Shown here: positions 6,155 to 42,031 of the stretch, piece by piece
Layout: each line of letters begins with the position of its first letter
Position numbering within the stretch: position 1 is the stretch's first letter
DNA from: Bradyrhizobium sp. AZCC 2262
GTDB taxonomy: Bacteria; Pseudomonadota; Alphaproteobacteria; Rhizobiales; Xanthobacteraceae
Length of the DNA stretch: 64,000 nucleotides
Assembly: GCF_036924535.1 (NCBI RefSeq)
Contig: NZ_JAZHRT010000001.1
Span: forward strand, 7,440,001-7,504,000
Direction of reading: 5' to 3'
Notes under the pieces: generated by a model
What the model saw: only the letters and a program-made list of their open reading frames with translations
What the model was told of the DNA's origin: nothing
Databases searched by the model: none
Position numbers and translations under genes: made by a program

Positions 6155-6174
6155 CGAGCGGCGCCGCTCTTTCC

Positions 6175-6296
6175 CCGTCATTGCGAGCGCAGCGAAGCAA
6201 TCCATCTTCTCGCTTGTAGCCCGGATGAGCGAAGCGATATCCGGGGCGGTGTTAGAGTGGTCCCCCGGATGTCGCTTCGCTCATCCGGGCTACGGC
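6175..6296. repeat. Two dispersed palindromic repeats (GCAATCCAT and TAGCCCGGATG types)
   Basis: A single TCATTGCGAGCGCAGCGAAGC unit at 6177 is followed by a near-perfect inverted repeat. Its arms of about 31 bases start at 6215 (GTAGCCCGGATGAGCGAAGC) and end at 6294, with two mismatches. The second element recurs at 17716 and the first at 42290. Confidence 0.8.
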
Positions 6297-6329
6297 TCCT
6301 GACACGATTTCGCGATCTCGCGGCAGATC

Positions 6330-6825
6330 TCGCCCGAGGTTTGCATCTTCGTTTGTCCCTCTTCGAAACAGAGGGCGCAGGGAAGACCGGGTGCTTGCTG
6401 CACCCGCGGTCTCGCGTGCGATTTGCGCAAACAAAACTGCACACGAGCATACAGGGCAGCGGGAGCATTCCGGCCTTCCCTGCGCAATGGCTTTACGACT
6501 TACTTCGTGCTCTTCCCGGAGAACGGCTTTTTTGCCTCCGTCGCCGGCGAGACAGATCCCGCCAACTTAACGCCAGCACCGCGGCGCCCGAACCACACGA
6601 CTTCACCGTACGCTTAAGGCACGTACGTCTCGCGCCATTCACGTCCATCGCATCTCACCGCGCGTTCGTGACGATGGCCAACGCCCCTCATCCGCCGTGA
6701 GACGGGCGGAGATATGCGACTGATTTGCCCGACAAGTTAAGCGGAATATTTTTGTTTCTCGGGCTTGACACGATTTCGGAAAATCAGAAGTGATTTGCCC
6801 CGTCGTGTTATTGCGTTGCAGAATC
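6330..6825. repeat. Long dispersed Bradyrhizobium-type repeat with a spurious reading frame
   Basis: The stretch can be read as a 147-codon frame (6257-6700) with phrases such as GAGKTGCLLHPRSRV, AFPAQWLYDLLRALPGER and RLNAST. I recognise these from memory as a family copied between genes in Bradyrhizobium genomes and often annotated as hypothetical protein. It continues past the frame into a tail with two GATTTGCCC stretches at 6722-6729 and 6791-6799. Codon use and the lack of a Shine-Dalgarno argue against a real gene. The copy number here cannot be checked without the genome. Confidence 0.6.
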
Positions 6826-6828
6826 TAC

Positions 6829-6941
6829 GAACCGAGCAGAACTCGCAGGTCATTTCCACCTTTGTCGTCCCTGACCATCTCGGCAGGGTCCTTCGGCAAG
6901 AAGCTCTTCAGCATCGACGAGACCTCACCACGCGCGATGAG
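6829..6941 (-). pseudogene. Remnant of the 3' end of hslO (Hsp33)
   Basis: Read on the minus strand this gives GEVSSMLKSFLPKDPAEMV, then after a one-base frameshift VEMTCEFCS. The intact hslO in this window has AVSSMLKSF...KDRAEMV and VTCEFCSS at its C-terminus. By eye the DNA is about 75 percent identical to 13374-13480, including 19 identical bases at GAGCAGAACTCGCAGGTCA. Only about 110 bp survive and there is no start. It has the same orientation as the intact gene, on the far side of the accessory segment. Confidence 0.75.
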
Positions 6942-7024
6942 TGACAATTAATCGCCGGCGGCAGGAACCATTGCCCTACGATCCTATTGGCTTCCCGACA
7001 CAACTCCTTTTGAAAAGAGACATT

Positions 7025-7342
7025 ATGAAAAATCTCGCGATCTATCTGGCAGCGGGCGCAAGTGCGCTTCTCATGACGGCCGCTTCAGCCGCGCCGCTTT
7101 CCCCGAATGTATCAGCCGCTCCGGAGAGCAACATTCAAAACGTCCGCATGGTTTGCAATGAGGCAGGCCAATGCTGGCGCGCAGGTGGTGAACGCCGCGT
7201 CATTGTCCGTGAGCCCGGTGATTCATACGGATATGCTCCACGCGGAAAGCGTTATATCGAGCGCGGTGGTTATGGGAACGGTGGCGGCATCGGCATCCGC
7301 GCCCCCGGCGTCAGCGTCGGAATCGGCACCGATCGTTACTGA
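7025..7342 (+). CDS. Small exported protein of unknown function
   Basis: A 105-residue protein with a clear signal peptide (MKNLAIYL..., hydrophobic to about residue 20, cleavage near ASA-AP). The mature part is short, with two Cys in VCNEAGQCW (possible disulfide), an Arg/Tyr-rich middle and a Gly-rich tail (YGNGGGIGIR, VSVGIG). The ATG at 7025 follows AAAAGAGA. An upstream in-frame ATG at 6941 is less likely because it lies in the hslO remnant. A strong terminator follows the gene, so it is probably monocistronic. I do not recognise a named family. Confidence 0.75.
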   Translation: MKNLAIYLAAGASALLMTAASAAPLSPNVSAAPESNIQNVRMVCNEAGQCWRAGGERRVIVREPGDSYGYAPRGKRYIERGGYGNGGGIGIRAPGVSVGIGTDRY

Positions 7343-7370
7343 GAACGCCGACAACAGTCCGAATACGAGC

Positions 7371-7398
7371 AAAGCCGCGGAGAAATCCGCGGCTTTTT
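7371..7398 (+). terminator. Intrinsic terminator of the small exported protein gene
   Basis: AAGCCGCGG pairs with CCGCGGCTT across the loop AGAAAT, followed by a T-run (TTTTT in all). The stem is nine perfect base pairs, 28 bases after the stop codon. Confidence 0.85.
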
Positions 7399-7486
7399 CG
7401 ACTGCAAACTCGAATACGCCCGGAGCGGGTAGTCAGCCGGCATCAACCCGGCACTCCGACATGCGGCGCGCAACTTGCGCCGTTCT

Positions 7487-7609
7487 TCACAGGTGAGGGG
7501 CGTTTGCTCCCCGCAGCCGTTCCACGTACCAGAAGGCCCAGATCATAACGAACGAGAGAACGAAAAATGCTCCGCAGGCCAGGAAAGTCGGCACTGTACT
7601 GGTATCCAT
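7487..7609 (-). CDS. 40-residue single-pass membrane protein
   Basis: The peptide starts MDTSTVPTF, has one hydrophobic helix (about residues 9-30, LACGAFFVLSFVMIWAFWYV) and a short basic tail. The ATG at 7609 is preceded by TGGAGG with good spacing, which decides the start over a longer frame upstream. It lies 103 bases downstream of the DUF1488 gene on the same strand and may share its transcript. No function can be named. Confidence 0.6.
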   Translation of the reverse strand: MDTSTVPTFLACGAFFVLSFVMIWAFWYVERLRGANAPHL

Positions 7610-7712
7610 GACATCCTCCAGGGCTTGATCGCTTGCAGTTTCTGTTCGCGACGAACGAGCACCTGCCCGGTCTGTCACGTCGTCCCGGCTGACCACATCA
7701 AAAGTGTTCGTT

Positions 7713-7973
7713 TCAAAAATTTGCAGCGACCAGATCGTAAGATCCCCGGCCTCCACGGACGTAAACCTTGGCAGCGGCCGCGCATATCGCATCACGGTTG
7801 CGATCGAACACGTTCAGGAAACCGGACTCGTCTTGACGAGCATCTGGCTGAATTCGCCTCAATGCGCCTTCGTCGATGAAGAATGTCGCTTCCAGCGCGC
7901 TGTCGTGCCCCCAGAACCGCACGGCTCGCCGGGTCTGGTCATATGAGCGGCTATGATTTGGAAACTCAATCAT
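7713..7973 (-). CDS. DUF1488 family protein
   Basis: An 86-residue protein that reads like the DUF1488 family: MIEFPNHSRSYD at the start, then AVRFWGHDSALEATFFID, a GALRRIQP segment, FDRNRDAI and a YDLVAANF end. The family is small, soluble and of unknown function, common in rhizobia and Burkholderia. I placed the start at the ATG at 7973, where similarity to the family begins, though the Shine-Dalgarno is weak and the frame extends to 8087. It sits in the accessory segment next to a micro-membrane protein. Confidence 0.65.
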   Translation of the reverse strand: MIEFPNHSRSYDQTRRAVRFWGHDSALEATFFIDEGALRRIQPDARQDESGFLNVFDRNRDAICAAAAKVYVRGGRGSYDLVAANF

Positions 7974-8368
7974 GAGGTTGGGACCGATCAAACGCGCGCC
8001 GGCGAACCACCCGCCGCGTCGGCCTTTGCACGACCTGCACCGCGGTGTGTTCGATGGCCATTGGCTGTCCTGACCGGTGACACGCACACCGTTGCGACGT
8101 GCGGTTGGTCAATGTCGTTGACAAGATTTGGCGTGGCTAGGCTTCGCGCTGCCGCAAAGGCGATGCTGAAGCAATACGATCGCGCTGTCTCTCAAGTGGC
8201 TACTTGGTGTCGCATTACAAGGCTTGTCAGGTCCTGCGCCGAAAACAAACTACGATTGTTCTCGCTATTCGGCCGATGATCACTATATGGTCGATATCAT
8301 CGCGCGCCCCTTGGCTGTTATCGGTGACTGAGAGCTTTGCGCTCCCGCCTAAACCCAAAGGCGGTCAT
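7974..8368. other. Intergenic stretch, no gene recognised
   Basis: The frames here are short and lack ribosome sites or recognisable motifs. The DNA looks less G+C-rich than the housekeeping flanks. It should contain the divergent promoters of the DUF1488 gene and the 34-codon gene, but none is convincing by eye. Confidence 0.5.
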
Positions 8369-8473
8369 ATGCCGAATTCCAGATTCGATCTTCGTGAGTG
8401 GTTGGTACCCCCGGTATTGATGCCGATCTTTCTTGTGCTGCTGGTCGCCGCTGCGATGGTTATTCAATGGTGA
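8369..8473 (+). CDS. 34-residue single-pass membrane protein
   Basis: MPNSRFDLREWLVPP leads into one hydrophobic helix (PVLMPIFLVLLVAAAMVI, about residues 15-32). An AAAGGCGG Shine-Dalgarno lies just before the ATG at 8369. Its stop codon overlaps the start of the next gene (ATGGTGA), so the two are likely translationally coupled. Small proteins of this pattern are common between genes in rhizobia. The function is unknown. Confidence 0.55.
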   Translation: MPNSRFDLREWLVPPVLMPIFLVLLVAAAMVIQW

Positions 8474-8682
8474 CCCGGCGTCGCGCAGTTTCACGGCAGA
8501 AAGAAACCCCATCGACGCTGGCTCGCGATCTGAACGCCGGGGCGGTCGCCGCCCTGGACGAGGCTCGCGAGATGCCGCCGGGGGATGAGCGCACCGAGGC
8601 GATTCACAAAGCAATGGCCTTTCGAAATGCCGCGGAGATCAACCAATTTCTCGGCCGCAAGCGCGGCGCGCCAGACCTGTGA
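8467..8682 (+). CDS. Conserved small protein of unknown function
   Basis: A 71-residue soluble protein: a basic N-terminus, then an Ala/Glu-rich helical core (LNAGAVAALDEAREMPPG) and a tail AAEINQFLGRKRG. Its ATG at 8467 lies inside the end of the preceding 34-codon membrane gene, a seven-base overlap typical of coupled translation. The pattern resembles small rhizobial proteins with a DLNA-ALEEAR-MPPG core that I have seen annotated only as hypothetical. No function is inferred. Confidence 0.6.
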   Translation: MVTRRRAVSRQKETPSTLARDLNAGAVAALDEAREMPPGDERTEAIHKAMAFRNAAEINQFLGRKRGAPDL

Positions 8683-8910
8683 TGAGTGCGCTGGCGGGAG
8701 AACCGCCAAGCGAGTGACACGCAGGAGCAAGCAATCTAGCGCTCGCATCCGGTGAGCGCATTCCGCTGGCCGCGGGCTTAGTCTGTTGGCGGCGGTTTTA
8801 TTGCGTCATTGTTGAGCCGGCGGGGATCATTTGGACAACGAGATGCTTGTCCCAGATGAACACCTATCCAGATCGATCGCCGTTCCCCGTTCCCCGCGAG
8901 CGCCGTTACG

Positions 8911-9294
8911 ATGGTACTTGATCATTCATGCGTTCCCGCCGTCGTTCTCATTGTCGAGGACGAGATGGTGCTCCGCATGCGCGCGGTCGACATGGTGGAA
9001 GACGCCGGATACACACCACTCGAGGCGCTGGACGCGGCGGAAGCCGTTGCCATCCTGGAATCCCGATCGGACGTCGCGCTGATGTGCACGGATATTCAGA
9101 TGCCCGGCCCAATGGACGGCATCGGACTTGCGCATGCCGTCCATGAGCGTTGGCCGACGATCAGGATCATCGTGGTATCGGGGCAATTGAACCTGCCGCA
9201 CCTCGATCTTCCTCCCCGCAGCAGGTTTCTCGGCAAGCCGCTCAATGCCGGGGAAGTGATAGCCGAAATGCGTGACATGATCGGCTACGCCTGA
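8911..9294 (+). CDS. Single-domain response regulator
   Basis: A 127-residue CheY-like receiver with no output domain. Visible are the acidic pair E16-D17 (VEDE), the phosphoacceptor Asp of CTDIQMPG near residue 61, the switch Ser of VVSG near 89, and the conserved Lys in GKPL near 109. It is followed 87 bases later by an HWE-type histidine kinase gene on the same strand, so the pair probably forms a phosphorelay or the receiver is a feedback sink. Receivers of this type often act in general-stress pathways in rhizobia, but no PhyR-type sigma-like domain is present. Confidence 0.82.
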   Translation: MVLDHSCVPAVVLIVEDEMVLRMRAVDMVEDAGYTPLEALDAAEAVAILESRSDVALMCTDIQMPGPMDGIGLAHAVHERWPTIRIIVVSGQLNLPHLDLPPRSRFLGKPLNAGEVIAEMRDMIGYA

Positions 9295-9381
9295 GACGCC
9301 AGCAGTTTGACGCCTAATACGATCCAATCGCGTGATTGCGTACAAAACCGAGCCACCGAAGATCAGTGCGGTACCTAACCC

Positions 9382-10179
9382 ATGGTGATACGATCAACGA
9401 TGTCTGAAAGCGATCTCCGGACGGACCCGCGCCCCGCAAGCAAGGCAGCCCCATATCAGGACGAACTGGCGGCCGAAAACGTCAGCCTGAGGCTTCTGCT
9501 CGCGCAGGCCGAGATCAATGCGCAGAGTCTGCTGGCCACGGCCGGCATCGACGCCAGAGAGCGCGAAGCGGCCGACAAGCTGCAGAGGCTGATCCTCGAG
9601 GAGCTGCACCACCGCATCAAGAATACGCTCGCAACCGTCGGCGCCATCGTCTCGCAAAGCCTGCGCGACCTGCCCGAAGCCAAACACGCACAGCACGCCA
9701 TCGAGGGCCGGCTGCTCGCGCTCGGACGTGCGCACGATTTGCTTTTGCAGGCAAGATGGAGCAGCGCGAACCTTGGCACGATCGTCCGCAGCGCTACCGA
9801 AGCCTTCGACAATCCCGACGAGCCGAAATTCTCGATTTCGGGACCCGATATCCGGATGACGTCGGGCGCCGTTATCGCCATTGCGATGACGCTCAACGAG
9901 CTCTGCACCAACACCACGAAGTTTGGCGCCCTGTCGGTCCCGCAAGGGCGGGTCGACATCAACTGGACGCTGGATCAACAGGCGCAGCGCCTGCGCCTTA
10001 CATGGACCGAGAGGAATGGTGCGGCCGTCCGTCCGCCCAAACAGCGCAGCTTCGGGACACGGCTGATCGAGACGCTTGGCAGGCAACTCCGGGGCGACGT
10101 GCGGCTGACCTATGAGCGAACCGGATTCGTCTACACATTCGACGTGCCGATGGCTTCTTTGACTTCGGTGTCGGCATAA
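9382..10179 (+). CDS. HWE-family sensor histidine kinase, soluble
   Basis: A 265-residue kinase with no membrane segment. Residues about 20-75 form a probable coiled coil (QDELAAENVSLRLLLAQAE). The phosphoacceptor His lies in EELHHRIKNTLATV (about 74-87), the N-box in TLNELCTNTTKFGA, and the WTERNG motif near 206-211 is the W-x-E mark of HWE kinases. The catalytic half ends GTRLIETL...LRGDV. It lacks a sensory domain of its own, so it may receive a signal through its N-terminal coil. The start is uncertain: ATG at 9382 or 9400, neither with a strong Shine-Dalgarno. It is likely paired with the orphan receiver gene just upstream. Confidence 0.8.
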   Translation: MVIRSTMSESDLRTDPRPASKAAPYQDELAAENVSLRLLLAQAEINAQSLLATAGIDAREREAADKLQRLILEELHHRIKNTLATVGAIVSQSLRDLPEAKHAQHAIEGRLLALGRAHDLLLQARWSSANLGTIVRSATEAFDNPDEPKFSISGPDIRMTSGAVIAIAMTLNELCTNTTKFGALSVPQGRVDINWTLDQQAQRLRLTWTERNGAAVRPPKQRSFGTRLIETLGRQLRGDVRLTYERTGFVYTFDVPMASLTSVSA

Positions 10180-10389
10180 GCCCGTATTCGGGCATTGCGG
10201 AAGCCAAATCGCAACCGCATTCGTTCGGACCGCTACGATCTGTCAGGAACGACTTTTGCCCCGCGATTGATGACGTGGTGATTTGTCACCGGAGCTCGTT
10301 ATTCGACCCCTTGATCCCCATATACAGCTCCATCCTCGTCAACCGGAATCGGTCGGATTGCGCGGAGACTTCCAACGAAAGGACGCGGC

Positions 10390-22345: not shown

Positions 22346-22432
22346 GCGTCATTCCGGGATGGTCCGGAGGACCAGACCCGGAATCTCGAGATTCCGGGTT
22401 CGCTCGTTTCACTCGCGCCCCGGAATGACCGG
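22346..22432. repeat. Dispersed inverted repeat, CATTCCGGG type, in the pstS-pstC gap
   Basis: CGTCATTCCGGGATGGTCCG and the facing CGCCCCGGAATGACCGG enclose GGAATCTCGAGATTCCGGG, itself a palindrome. Related copies lie at 34873 and 45150. Its place directly after pstS in the operon could create a stable 3' hairpin for the pstS message. Confidence 0.8.
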
Positions 22433-36628: not shown

Positions 36629-37534
36629 TTGACCGAGGCCAGCGACCCCGAAACCGGCTTTCTCGAGCAGCTTGGCCAGCGTGTGCGCACCATGCGCGCC
36701 CTTCGCGGCATGTCGCGCAAGGTGCTCGCCAAGGTGTCGGGCATTTCCGAGCGCTATATCGCGCAGCTTGAGAGCGGCAAAGGCAATGTCTCGATCGTGC
36801 TGCTGCGGCGCGTGTCGAACGCGATGGGCGCGCATCTGGAAGACCTCATTCCCGCAACCGAACCGGCGCCCGACTGGGCCGTTATCCGCGATCTGTTGCG
36901 CAAGGCGACGCCCGCCCAGATCGCGCAGGCCAAGGACGCGCTCGCCGGCAGCGGCCCTTCGGCGCAGCGGCGGATCTCGTTCTCCGGCATCGCCCTGATC
37001 GGCCTGCGCGGCGCCGGCAAATCCACGCTCGGCAGAATGCTGGCAAAACAGATCGGCTGGAGTTTTGTCGAGCTCAACAAGCAAGTCGAGACAGAGAACG
37101 GGCTGTCGGTTGCCGAGATCATCGCGCTCTACGGCCAGGAAGGCTTTCGCCGCATGGAGCAGGCGGCGCTGCGGCAATTGCTGGCGCGGAAAGAGCTGAT
37201 GGTGCTGGCGACCGGCGGCGGCATCGTCTCCGAACCGTTGACGTTCGACCTGATCCTGTCGTCGTTCTACACCATCTGGCTCAAGGCCGAGCCGGAAGAG
37301 CACATGGCCCGCGTCCGCCGCCAGGGCGACCTGCGCCCGATGGCCGACGACCGCTCGGCGATGGCGGAGTTGCGCAACATTTTGGTCAGCCGCGAACCGC
37401 TTTATGCCCGCGCGTCGGCCGTGGTCGACACCGCCGGGCTTTCGGTCGATGCCGCCGCCGCGCGGCTCAGCGATGCGGTGGCGCCGGTGCTGCACGACAA
37501 GCACGCGTTCGGGCTGCGCAGCGCGGCGTCCTGA
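36629..37534 (+). CDS. boxR: BoxR-type transcriptional regulator (HTH + shikimate-kinase fold)
   Basis: A 301-residue repressor with two parts, as in BzdR/BoxR: an N-terminal XRE-type helix-turn-helix (about 13-76, LGQRVRTMRALRGMSRKVLAKV...ISERYIAQLESG) and a C-terminal shikimate-kinase-like domain with P-loop GLRGAGKST (125-133), which in this family senses benzoyl-CoA. The start is a TTG at 36629 with GAGG just before; nearby ATGs are out of frame or inside the HTH. It is divergent from the benzoate-CoA ligase gene and probably controls that gene and boxCB. The family match is firm; the start codon is less so. Confidence 0.9.
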   Translation: MTEASDPETGFLEQLGQRVRTMRALRGMSRKVLAKVSGISERYIAQLESGKGNVSIVLLRRVSNAMGAHLEDLIPATEPAPDWAVIRDLLRKATPAQIAQAKDALAGSGPSAQRRISFSGIALIGLRGAGKSTLGRMLAKQIGWSFVELNKQVETENGLSVAEIIALYGQEGFRRMEQAALRQLLARKELMVLATGGGIVSEPLTFDLILSSFYTIWLKAEPEEHMARVRRQGDLRPMADDRSAMAELRNILVSREPLYARASAVVDTAGLSVDAAAARLSDAVAPVLHDKHAFGLRSAAS

Positions 37535-37571: not shown

Positions 37572-40500
37572 TCACGTTGCCGTTAGGGTCTTTGCTTCTT
37601 GCTCCGCGGTCGCCGCTTCCTCGTATTGACCTAATTCAGAAAGGATGACCGCTAGATTGTTGAGCGATATCGCCAAGTAACGCGTGAACACCTCGGGCTG
37701 TGCCCGCGCAAGATCGCGATAGAATCCGGTCGCCTCCCCCGCTGTGACGAGCGCTTCCTCGCGCTGGCCAAGTTCGGAGAGCATGGCAACCAGATTGTTG
37801 AGCGACATGGCCAGAGCAGGCGTGAACGCCTCGGGCCTCGCCCGCGCAAGATCGCGACGGATCGCGACGGCCTCCCGCGCCAAGGCGAGCGCCTCCTCGC
37901 GCTGGTCAAGCTCGGAAAACATGTTGGCCAGGTTGTTGAGCGACCCGGCCAGATTAGGCGTGAACGCCTCGGGCCGCGCCCGCGCAAGATCGCGACGGAT
38001 CGCGACGGCCTCCCGCGCCGCGGCGAGCGCCTCCTCGCGCTGGCCAAGCTCGGAAAACATGTTGGCCAGGTTGTTGAGCGACATGGCCAGATCAGGCGTG
38101 AACGCCTCGGGCCGCGCCCGCGCAAGATCGCGATAGATCGCGACAGCCTCCCGCGCCACGGCCAGCGCCTCCTCGCGCTGGCCAAGTTCGGAGAGCATGG
38201 CAGCCAGGTTGTTGAGCGACCCGGCCAGATCAGGCGTGAACGCCTCGGACCGTACCCGCGCAAGATCGCGATAGATCGCGACAGCCTCCCGCGCCACGGC
38301 GAACGCCTCCTCGCGCTGGCCAAGTTCGGAGAGCATGGCAGCCAGGTTGTTAAGCGACCCGGCCAGATCAGGCGTGAACGCCTCGGGCCGCGCCCGCGCA
38401 AGATCGCGATAGATCGCGACAGCCTCCCGCGCCGCGGCGAGCGCCTTCTCGCGCTGGCCAAGTTCGGAGAGCACGTTGGCCAGGTTGTTGAGCGACATGG
38501 CCAGATCAGGCGTGAACGCCTCGGGCCGCGCCCGCGCAAGATCGCGATAGATCGCGACGGCCTCCCGCGCCGCGGCGAGCGCCTCCTCTCGCTGGCCAAG
38601 TTCGGAGAGCCTGCCAGCCAGGTTGTTAAGCGACCCGGCCAGCTCAGGCGTGAACGCCTCGGGCCGCGCCCGCGCAAGATCGCGACGGATCGCGACGGCC
38701 TCCCGCGCCGCGGCGAGCGCCTCCTCGCGCTGGCCAAGTTCGGAGAGCCTGTTGGCCAGGTTGTTGAGCGACATGCCCAGATCAGGCGTGAACGCCTCGG
38801 GCCGCGCCCGTGCAAGATCGCGATAGAACCCGGTGGCTTCCCGCGCCGCGGCGAGCGCCTCCTCGCGCTGGCCAAGTTCGGAGAGCCTGTTGGCCAGGTT
38901 GTTGAGCGAGCCGGCCAGATTTGGCGTGAACGCCTCGGGCAGCGCCCGCACAAGATCGCGATAGATCGCGACGGCCTCCCGCGCCGCGGCGAGCGCCTCC
39001 TCTCGCTGGCCTAGCCGCGAAAGAAAGGCGGAAGCATTGTTCAAGAAAACGGCTCGTCTCGCAGGTTCATCTTCCAGCAAACGGGCGATCGTAAGAGCAA
39101 TCAACGCGGCGAATCCTACCGCCGCGTAGGGCACATCTTCGGTTGCGACGGCGACGAATCGCACAGCCTGCTTCGGATCTCGCTCGATGATCTCGGCGAG
39201 CCGGCTTTCGAGCGATTGGGCTCTCCTTCCCGTGACATCCAGAGCGTCCATATCAAACAAGACGCGGCCTAGCCGATTGCCCAACCCCTCTTCAGCACCT
39301 GTAAACGCTATCGACAGCCAGTGGGATAGCCTTTGGTCTCCATCCGGAAACTTGGCATCGAATAGTTCAGCCCCTAGAAATTCAGCCGCCATCCTATCAG
39401 GCTTCACGGGAGTCAACTGACCGAGTCGCCACCACGGCGTATCCGCGATCTTCCGAATAACCTGGTCTCTCGCCACACCCTCACATAAACCGGCATCAAC
39501 TAGCTTCGCGACAACATCGACATTCAAGCCATTCCCGAGAACACTTAGCGCGAGAAGCCTCCCCAACGTGTTCGGACCGATGCCAAGCCGCTCGGATGTT
39601 CTTCGAACTCGAGCCCGTTCGCGTATTGCGAGATCACGAACGATCGCATTGCCATCAATGCCGAAGGCATTCTCCGGCGCCAAAACAGCGTGAACCGCCG
39701 CGGCCGCTGCAAAGAGGGGCAAGCGATGCAGCGGCGCTTCCATCACCCAAGCATCGGCCCGATCAAGGCGCGGCTTGGGCAACCCGGCGGCAGCCGCGAA
39801 GTTGGTAGCCGCCGTCTCGATCAGTTCCAGAACATTCGCTCGGCTCAGATCGCCCGGATCGGCGATCGGGTGATTGCCGAAGCGGCCTTCCAGATCGATG
39901 GTTTCGGCCTCCCAATGTCTAAAATCCCGCCGCGATAGAAGCAACAGCCGGATCGGGTAGGACGCGCTCTTGGTAACAGCAAGCATCTTGATCAACGCGC
40001 GCATCAGGTCGAGATTTTCCTCGGGGTAGTCGAGAATGAGGAAGAGCCCCTTGGCGCTGCCGGTTGTGACGCGCAACGACGAGGCAGACCTTACAAAGCC
40101 GGCGCTCCAGCCGCGTTCACGCAAAGCGTTGGCAACCGCCGCCGCAAGGCGCGTTTTTCCCGAACCGCCTTCTCCTGTCACCAAACGGGCCGATGGCGGC
40201 CCAAGGTCGCGTTCGGCCCACCCGATAATCTTGGTCAACTCTTCGTTGCGGCCGTACAGTTGCTCGACAAGCCCGTAGTTCCAGCGCAGAGCATCCAACA
40301 GGTTGTAATCACCTGGTTGCACGGCGCTTGCCAGTGATCGCCAGGGAAGTTCCAGATCGGACGAAGGCGACAATTCATCCGAATTGGGAAACACGATCTC
40401 GAAAGTGTCATTGCCCACCGCAATCGAAATGTCGGCGCTTTGCTCCGAACGCTTCAACAAGCTGAGAATATTCTGGGTGTCCGAATTTGTTGCCTGCTGC

Positions 40501-41315
40501 CCACTGAGGAGTTCCTCGGCCAGTTTCTCAATGCGCGGTTTCGGCCGCTCGAATTGATCGAGGACAAACTCCTTCACATGCACATATACTTCATCAGATC
40601 GACTTTTGGGTTTTGCGATGGACCAATGTTCATGGTCAGTCGGCCACGCGCGCACGCGGTACAACGCGGGGTCGGCCGTATCGGGCTTCACGATTGTACC
40701 GAGGATGCGGATCGGCTTTGTCTCTCTCAAGACAAGGTGCGAAATTCCGATGTCTGTCGCCCACACTCGGTACCAGTTATTGAGCCGGCGTAGATTCTCA
40801 TCGTTGCGGACCAGGCACATCGTCGCGGCCGACGGTCGAACAAGGATGCGCAGCCGGTCACCCCAAATCGCCATGTCGGCGCCGGTATGAGGCGTCGCGA
40901 GAAATGCGACCTTGTCTATCCGGTCGAGCAAACTGGCGGCCGCGACGCTGGTGTTTGCTTCCTGTCCCAGTAGCTCGAGGAGTTGTTTGATCACGAGCCC
41001 ACCAAGGCTATGGCCGATCAGAATGACGCGCCCATCCCGTAATCTTGGTTCCTTGATAAGGCGTCCGAGAATGTTCTCGGCACGATCGAGGAGGCCCATC
41101 GCGGTCCCCTCCCAGCGCGAGATTGGCGCTTCGTATCCGACAGACCAAATAGCGTGGCCGTCGATATCCTCGGCAAGCCACCGGGGCCAAAGCGTGCCCT
41201 CGTCAAGCTTAGCCGCCTGCCATGTCAGAAGTGGATGCCCCCCAAGACCGTGAAAGAAAATCACGTTCGCTTTGAGGGCTCCACGACTATTCGATAAACA
41301 ATGAAGATCGGCCAT
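37572..41315 (-). CDS. NLR-like protein: alpha/beta hydrolase + STAND NTPase + TPR array
   Basis: A 1247-residue cytoplasmic protein. Residues 16-255 form a lipase/PGAP1-like hydrolase: VIFFHGLGGH (18-27), nucleophile GHSLGG (101-106), FLATPHTG (138-145), and a likely catalytic His in DHEHWSIAKP (227-236). Residues 340-700 form a STAND NTPase: P-loop GEGGSGKT (381-388), Walker B LFLILDYPE (424-432), sensor arginine in LLLLSRR, and a winged-helix-like stretch. Residues about 765-1247 are ten 46-residue TPRs plus a partial eleventh (LSELGQREEALAAAREAV...). Effector + NTPase + repeat sensor is the layout of Avs/bNACHT defence proteins and of fungal NLRs with a SesB-type lipase. ATG 41315 was preferred to TTG 41342. 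It stands alone, convergent with boxR (37-bp gap). The defence role is inference. Confidence 0.8.
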   Translation of the reverse strand: MADLHCLSNSRGALKANVIFFHGLGGHPLLTWQAAKLDEGTLWPRWLAEDIDGHAIWSVGYEAPISRWEGTAMGLLDRAENILGRLIKEPRLRDGRVILIGHSLGGLVIKQLLELLGQEANTSVAAASLLDRIDKVAFLATPHTGADMAIWGDRLRILVRPSAATMCLVRNDENLRRLNNWYRVWATDIGISHLVLRETKPIRILGTIVKPDTADPALYRVRAWPTDHEHWSIAKPKSRSDEVYVHVKEFVLDQFERPKPRIEKLAEELLSGQQATNSDTQNILSLLKRSEQSADISIAVGNDTFEIVFPNSDELSPSSDLELPWRSLASAVQPGDYNLLDALRWNYGLVEQLYGRNEELTKIIGWAERDLGPPSARLVTGEGGSGKTRLAAAVANALRERGWSAGFVRSASSLRVTTGSAKGLFLILDYPEENLDLMRALIKMLAVTKSASYPIRLLLLSRRDFRHWEAETIDLEGRFGNHPIADPGDLSRANVLELIETAATNFAAAAGLPKPRLDRADAWVMEAPLHRLPLFAAAAAVHAVLAPENAFGIDGNAIVRDLAIRERARVRRTSERLGIGPNTLGRLLALSVLGNGLNVDVVAKLVDAGLCEGVARDQVIRKIADTPWWRLGQLTPVKPDRMAAEFLGAELFDAKFPDGDQRLSHWLSIAFTGAEEGLGNRLGRVLFDMDALDVTGRRAQSLESRLAEIIERDPKQAVRFVAVATEDVPYAAVGFAALIALTIARLLEDEPARRAVFLNNASAFLSRLGQREEALAAAREAVAIYRDLVRALPEAFTPNLAGSLNNLANRLSELGQREEALAAAREATGFYRDLARARPEAFTPDLGMSLNNLANRLSELGQREEALAAAREAVAIRRDLARARPEAFTPELAGSLNNLAGRLSELGQREEALAAAREAVAIYRDLARARPEAFTPDLAMSLNNLANVLSELGQREKALAAAREAVAIYRDLARARPEAFTPDLAGSLNNLAAMLSELGQREEAFAVAREAVAIYRDLARVRSEAFTPDLAGSLNNLAAMLSELGQREEALAVAREAVAIYRDLARARPEAFTPDLAMSLNNLANMFSELGQREEALAAAREAVAIRRDLARARPEAFTPNLAGSLNNLANMFSELDQREEALALAREAVAIRRDLARARPEAFTPALAMSLNNLVAMLSELGQREEALVTAGEATGFYRDLARAQPEVFTRYLAISLNNLAVILSELGQYEEAATAEQEAKTLTAT
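37644..39023 (-). repeat. Ten tandem 138-bp coding repeats (TPR array)
   Basis: Each unit encodes LSELGQREEALAAAREAV-(I/G)-(Y/R)RDLARARPEAF-TPxLAxSLNNLAxx. Units are nearly identical at DNA level, differing mainly at a few codons (AIY/AIR/GFY; NLAxx; N/D/E/A before LA). A partial 23-codon unit ends the gene. The high identity points to recent expansion or gene conversion and to copy-number instability. Units 1 and 10 are the most diverged. Confidence 0.92.
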
Positions 41316-41671
41316 CGATCCAACCAATCCAATTGATCGCAATAAAACGCAATCTTAGCGAGAACGGGGCACATTGACCACAGGCTGCAAGCCCATCTGA
41401 GATTGCACTTCCCCTGATTAGATATCCACAATCCGACGACGAACTCGTCTTCCGCTGCACGGCGAGCACGCTTTCGGACTGCGCCGCGCGGTATCCTGAA
41501 TATTTCGGCGGAACGGGCAACCTGCAGCGAGCCTGGGCCGAGCCCGTGCGCCAGCGGCTGTGGTCGGGGACAACAACTGTCGTTAACCACCGCGCAAGTT
41601 CCATGCGAACGCCCGCTGCAACACACCCTCAAAGTGTGTTACCAAATCGTTAATTGCATGGAGGACAAATC
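41316..41671. other. Intergenic stretch between the NLR-like gene and the PilZ gene
   Basis: The 356 bases are divergently flanked and should hold both promoters. AACACAC/GTGTGTT (41614-41634) forms a seven-pair hairpin just before the PilZ gene. Short frames here have no ribosome site or family match. The part next to the NLR-like gene looks less G+C-rich than the flanks. Confidence 0.5.
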
Positions 41672-42031
41672 ATGCTGGAGCGGCGTCAGCATCCCAGAAA
41701 CCGCGTCTATTACGGCGGAATGGTCGCGTTCAACGCGCGCAATTCGACGCTTGCCTGCACCGTGCGCAATTTCAGCAGGCACGGCGCCAGGATCGAATTC
41801 GACAATTCGACCATGTTGCCCGACCGGATTGATTTCGAGATCGAGCGCAGGGGTCTGTCCTGCCGGGCCCACCTCGTCTGGCGCGATCGAAACGCGGCCG
41901 GCCTGGCGTTTTCAAATGTGCAGGAGACCAGCGACGTCATTCCGCTGGACCTGGCGCGCAAGCTGCGCGCGACCGAACGGGCAAACCGGCAGCTCCAGGC
42001 GCGCCTCGATCAGTTTCTATCCGAACTCTAG
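41672..42031 (+). CDS. PilZ domain protein
   Basis: A 119-residue protein that is almost entirely a PilZ domain. The c-di-GMP motifs are RRQHPRNR (RxxxR type, about 4-11) and VRNFSRHGARI (NxSxxG, about 31-41), both intact. A C-terminal helix (about 95-119, ATERANRQLQARLDQFL) may be a coiled coil. It should bind cyclic di-GMP and act as an adaptor for motility or polysaccharide control. The ATG at 41672 follows GGAGG by seven bases. A small membrane-protein gene begins six bases after its stop, so the two probably form an operon. Confidence 0.85.
   Translation: MLERRQHPRNRVYYGGMVAFNARNSTLACTVRNFSRHGARIEFDNSTMLPDRIDFEIERRGLSCRAHLVWRDRNAAGLAFSNVQETSDVIPLDLARKLRATERANRQLQARLDQFLSEL

Follow-up and report, generated by a model that had tools for sequence, protein, structure and literature searches.

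A stand-alone hydrolase-STAND-TPR gene inserted at boxR in Bradyrhizobium encodes a candidate NLR-like receptor

We analysed a 64,000-nucleotide stretch of the genome of Bradyrhizobium sp. AZCC 2262 (contig NZ_JAZHRT010000001.1, positions 7,440,001 to 7,504,000; hereafter the window), in which one gene codes for a large protein that joins a serine hydrolase, a STAND (signal transduction ATPase with numerous domains) switch and an array of tetratricopeptide repeats (TPRs). The initial annotation had placed this gene correctly without giving its strand, which is minus: the open reading frame starts with an ATG at 41315, ends with a stop codon at 37574-37572 and codes for 1247 residues without internal stop. 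The gene is thus real and intact, and it is present in a single copy in the genome (one contig of 9.48 Mb). Its hallmarks are the motifs GHSLGG from residue 101, GEGGSGKT (P-loop) from 381, LILDY from 426 and LLLSRR from 458. Because seven other proteins share the hydrolase and the switch, at 54-83% identity (P0002-P0007 and P0009, the latter stopping before most of the TPR array), this architecture stands above chance. The features and their coordinates are collected in Table 1.

The N-terminal head was initially described as a serine hydrolase with an intact GHSLGG elbow, and our analyses agree. All 86 aligned homologues carry Ser103, Asp215 and His230, and the predicted structure of the head (pLDDT 81.5, pTM 0.83) matches alpha/beta hydrolase folds. 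Pfam searches, for which the best 25 of 38 families were taken in (E up to 0.032), gave Abhydrolase_6 on the head with 23.5 bits, under the Pfam cut-off of 26.3, and AAA_16 on the switch with 29.0 bits, under the cut-off of 32.6. As both matches are below cut-off, the assignment of the hydrolase and P-loop domains rests on motifs, alignment and fold. The PADLOC profile PDLC02918 'DUF626_VIII', whose suffix we take to denote retron type VIII, matches residues 8-300 (E=5.8e-34). When the hydrolase alignment was run as a profile against the PDB, the matches were mostly TPR proteins, since full-length rows were used, with one alpha/beta hydrolase (8hfw, E=0.0041).

In the central part of the protein, K387, D429, E432, E433, S461 and R462 are invariant in a 20-row switch alignment, which bears out the nucleoside triphosphatase (NTPase) with Walker A, Walker B and sensor arginine recognized at first reading. 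A structure search, proposed then as a check, found a STAND-like fold: the predicted switch resembles NB-ARC, Apaf-1 and MalT, and the top Foldseek match is EfAvs5. The alignment to Apaf-1 spans model residues 319-760 and that to MalT 321-759, with Z scores tied with those of other AAA+ proteins. Effector, switch and superstructure repeats are present in one chain. By its motifs, predicted fold and domain order, the protein is a STAND NTPase resembling NOD-like receptors (NLRs).

The C-terminal part is the long TPR array that had been noted at first reading, with 11 stretches matching Pfam TPR_10 (E=3.7e-69). TRF found a 138-bp unit in 9.8 copies with 89% matches, and the nine full units share on average 83% amino acid identity (range 65-93%). 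In fungi, highly conserved repeats have been defined in PMC4986451, with the paper's own program, as more than 85% alike over at least 100 amino acids. Identity between repeats is 83% within this protein vs 76% against P0002, and the rest of the protein is 88% identical to P0002. As the units of P0002 itself are only 72% alike, concerted evolution of the repeats holds on one side only. TPR positions 2, 5, 9, 12 and 13 are described as concave ligand-contact positions (PMC1261162). In 24 units pooled from P0001-P0003, with TPR positions assigned by eye, these have a mean entropy of 1.43 vs 0.76 elsewhere, a value reached by 2,250 of 100,000 random sets. Positive selection on the repeats was not shown, the overall ratio of non-synonymous to synonymous substitution rates between units being 0.77.

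Table 1. Features of the inserted segment and of the gene that it carries (window coordinates).
Feature	Position	Strand	Basis
Complete gene, joining serine hydrolase, STAND switch and TPR array, 1247 residues	37572..41315	minus	open reading frame and Pfam
Alpha/beta serine-hydrolase head, residues 1-270	40506..41315	minus	conservation, predicted fold, PADLOC match
Catalytic Ser103, codon	41009-41007	minus	head residue
Catalytic Asp215, codon	40673-40671	minus	head residue
Catalytic His230, codon	40628-40626	minus	head residue
STAND nucleotide-binding core, residues 345-560	39636..40283	minus	motifs and fold matches
P-loop, residues 381-388	40175-40152	minus	switch motif
Walker B, residues 424-433	40046-40017	minus	switch motif
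Sensor arginine R462		minus	switch motif
Helical and winged-helix-like switch part ahead of the repeats, residues 561-753	39057..39635	minus	predicted structure; Apaf-1 and MalT alignments cross the region
Eleven 46-residue TPR units, residues 754-1247, last unit short	37575..39056	minus	Pfam, TRF, unit alignment
Inserted 3,919-bp segment	37535..41453	none	holds the gene, with 37 bp to one side and 138 bp to the other
Left copy of direct repeat (coding copy), the final 46 bp of boxR	37489..37534	plus	39/46 identical to right copy
Right copy of direct repeat, displaced boxR 3' end, running into empty-site flank	41454..41499	plus	flank comparison

The gene lies beside boxB, boxC, a benzoate-CoA ligase gene and the regulator gene boxR (NCBIfam), all of benzoyl-CoA metabolism. 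boxR was matched in 117 of 117 genomes of the genus (in one, G448, over 59 bp only), and DNA of our gene was found in none of 29 relatives' boxR loci, which extend 1.5 kb past boxR. boxR thus occurs in the genus without the gene, and relatives of the gene do not have these metabolic neighbours. In 15 of the 29 relatives, the window flank 41454-41622 and beyond begins no more than a few hundred bases from where boxR ends; in two loci (L141, L143) the flank from 41500 follows boxR directly. The 46-bp direct repeat has a local score of 32, vs at most 18 in 500 shuffles, and its right copy continues into AATATTTCGGCGGAAC, the same bases as after boxR in L087 and L089. These empty sites and the repeat indicate that the 3.9-kb segment entered at the boxR end and left boxR intact. 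Elements that integrate at gene 3' ends leave the gene intact. The segment has no integrase, since the gene leaves room for only the short stretches on its two sides. GC content is 58-59% over 39001-42000 and 60-65% in most neighbouring kilobases, with 70% in the repeats. The suggestion that this is a stand-alone cargo gene next to metabolic genes therefore stands: by comparison of the loci, it is a one-gene insertion, probably gained horizontally. The insertion and its repeat show a candidate receptor of this kind moving by itself, outside defence islands, and island-based searches would for that reason miss it. We discarded the idea that boxR is an insertion hotspot, as 19 of 20 relatives have no second boxR-end copy above shuffles (the exception, L158, scored 18 vs 15). 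Around six relatives' genes, no flanking repeats exceeded shuffles save at L030 (19 vs 17), which we did not count.

Matches to the first 740 residues were found somewhere in 25 of 391 genomes sampled from the family and in 18 of 385 sampled from the class, and in both samples only AZCC 2262 is matched over hydrolase and switch together. Full relatives come from metagenomic and other sources and from Methylobacterium sp. Leaf118, whose locus (L030) is identical to P0005 in length and start. No phage record was matched. Thirty plasmid records gave partial matches, none of them covering over 80% of the query. The same hydrolase head is found in genes of 4.1-4.6 kb (L138:8001-12122, L139:8040-12629, L140:7140-11267) on plasmids of Enterobacter, Agrobacterium and Lelliottia, adjoining VapBC, a type I restriction gene or integrases.

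Heads have been exchanged among such proteins. The head is carried by 88 of 120 homologues listed, mostly on TPR proteins lacking this switch: 73 of the 88 have no P-loop pattern, 15 have any such pattern and 7 have this switch. In P0097 the head is joined to a true NB-ARC and TPRs, in P0105 to PIN-type modules. Conversely, the switch is found with a trypsin-like head (P0019) and TIR heads (P0109, L040), and many relatives are devoid of a large head. We read 31 of 56 relative loci further, together with two plasmid loci, and examined the neighbours for 18 of these 33; among the 33, the P-loop lies within 120 residues of the gene start in 17, beyond 240 in 13, and the pattern is absent in 3. 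In a 29-row switch tree rooted at its midpoint, the eight hydrolase-fused proteins form one clade (support 100/100), nested in a group of 23 rows (100/99), the remaining 15 of which have no hydrolase. P0010 and P0011 are scored there as having no hydrolase and their N-termini may be cut off; the forks around the hydrolase clade are open.

Where the switch-TPR module occurs without hydrolase, it can start with a short glycine-rich, beta-like motif, such as SITVKNILAFGNVSIS (L029) or VVQIEGDQNTVQIG (L059). Six such genes are adjoined by a gene for a protein of 133-150 residues, located downstream in L028, L029, L034 and L059 and upstream in L033 and L036. This is the layout of BASS/Bell pairs, as described mainly from actinobacteria and cyanobacteria in PMC7889193, and the small proteins are candidate Bell-like partners. 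They have a hydrophobic N-terminus, and without their C-terminal 45 residues they are still related in a six-sequence database (for example, L028-L029 9e-18, L033-L036 7e-18), L059 only weakly. At five other loci (L031, L032, L046, L049, L071), the small neighbour has transmembrane-like stretches, as judged by eye. Pfam gave no family above cut-off for the partners, and a search for their homologues found only four close copies. No partner homologue was detected in the window or in L030 at E up to 0.1.

We compared the first 50 residues of each receptor with a hand-picked stretch of its own neighbour at these 11 loci. L049, which nearly duplicates L046, was dropped for the permutation. The summed score was 304, which none of 20,000 random pairings among ten loci reached (maximum 297), and of the 720 pairings possible at the six Bell-like loci the true one scored best. 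In several loci the small neighbour thus appears to carry a motif resembling that of the receptor, in the manner of amyloid-signalling NLR pairs. Much of the summed score is supplied by L046 and L071. Taken singly, pairs are clear in L046, L049 and L071 (0-1 of 1000 shuffles), fair in L029, L034 and L059 (17-28), weak in L028 (78) and L033 (85) and not above shuffles in L036 (896), L031 (378) and L032 (348). The L029 motif fits the L034 partner better than its own (37 vs 33).

Other gene arrangements were seen around these relatives. On the same plasmid stretch of Rhizobium ruizarguesonis as the L028 pair, and back to back with it, a second Bell-like gene, P0130, adjoins a different large ATPase gene, P0131 (L028:10317-10772 and 6163-10224, minus strand); the small partner family therefore also accompanies another ATPase. 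In Rhizobium sp. SL42 (L029:15837-22553), a caspase, an EAD1-containing protein and GASH are annotated beside the pair, forming a conflict-system cluster. In two relatives from the class (L163, L167), a short-motif receptor gene without adjacent small partner lies just downstream of an era-like GTPase gene.

The order of effector, NTPase and repeats had been likened to Avs and bNACHT defence proteins and to fungal NLRs. The NLR-like plan holds, as in fungal lipase NLRs, but membership of the former two is not supported: none of the 5 families listed by PADLOC-DB 2.0.0 at E up to 1 is Avs, and NACHT is absent from the Pfam families taken in. Avs5 and other Avs (AVAST) proteins share the effector - STAND - C-terminal repeats plan, with TPRs in some Avs5 according to PMC12931631; the hydrolase here takes the place of SIR2. 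The SesB-like/NB-ARC/TPR NLRs of fungi, such as Pa_2_10340 of Podospora, are described as having the same order of putative lipase, switch and TPR array, with near-identical repeats (PMC4986451), whereas our protein is bacterial and its switch has no NB-ARC match among the Pfam families taken in. The nearest tested parallel in the sources consulted is PLP-1, a fungal patatin-NB-ARC-TPR receptor reported to need both its lipase and its nucleotide site for cell death (PMC12881547). According to PMC5485727, a HeLo-like killer and a lipase can both be driven by a single NLR in the fungal PNT1-HELLP-SBP and HET-eN/SESA/SESB clusters, the link being a common amyloid motif. Relatives of our switch have a hydrolase fused to them or else a motif with a small partner; unlike those clusters, the window gene has its hydrolase fused, with no Bell-like partner found in the window. 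Nor does it look like a BASS/Bell gene, having a hydrolase head instead of the short N-terminal motif and no partner homologue in the window at E up to 0.1.

We tentatively consider that one alphaproteobacterial switch-TPR module may be wired to killing in two ways: by fusion to a hydrolase, or in trans by a short prion-like motif that it has in common with a Bell-like or transmembrane killer next to it. On this view, the window gene might be a naturally occurring cis form of an amyloid-signalling receptor, its hydrolase the equivalent of the membrane-attacking partner, spread as a one-gene cassette. If this is right, a comparison of fused with split forms within a single switch family would show directly whether amyloid motifs are a mere alternative cable between sensor and killer.

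We regard it as reasonably likely that the protein is a stand-alone NLR-like (STAND) invader sensor that, once activated, turns on an esterase or phospholipase damaging to the cell; from its domains, it probably makes infected cells stop or die. The resting switch would hold ADP and be kept closed by the TPRs. Binding of an invader- or stress-derived ligand in the TPR groove would let the switch exchange to ATP and assemble, and the clustered heads would begin to act on an ester in the cell, most likely a membrane lipid, so that the cell would stop or die ahead of phage release. The small, probably membrane-acting partners of relatives speak, by analogy only, for a hydrolase that attacks membranes. 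Thioesterases, lactonases, aryl esterases and haloperoxidases are among the fold neighbours of the head, many of whose matches lie within a few Z units of one another, as would suit an enzyme that spares membranes and instead splits a small ester, thioester, lactone or amide, thereby producing a signal or using up a metabolite; this we hold to be unlikely. We give little credence to an NLR of non-defence stress, allorecognition or lysis control, with a role like that of LypABC (CARD-NLR-like, gene-transfer-agent release, Caulobacter): PMC13236601 reports that what alphaproteobacterial NLR-like TPR proteins govern can be lysis of the host and not defence against phages, but LypB belongs to a three-gene system, whereas our gene stands alone and was inserted recently. 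Most improbable is a regulator of the MalT kind serving the adjoining benzoate (box) genes: MalT is a STAND-TPR protein matching the switch by fold, but no DNA-binding domain is among the Pfam families taken in and the gene is an insertion at a locus empty in the 29 relatives compared.

What appears new here is a predicted bacterial NLR-like receptor with a serine-hydrolase head, built on a switch family that looks wired to separate killers in relatives. Among the best open-licence literature matches, we found no paper on this switch family or on the bacterial fusion, which is not to claim its absence from print. According to a review, the stimuli of many fungal lipase-NLR-TPR receptors are unknown; should the invader-sensor reading be true, a bacterial protein of that plan would be open to phage tests in ordinary laboratory strains.

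Elsewhere in the window, a small open reading frame at 41654-42031, PilZ-like by eye, is present in 21 of the 117 genus genomes, AZCC 2262 included, and ARAGORN reports a tRNA-like match with unresolved anticodon at 22351-22427.
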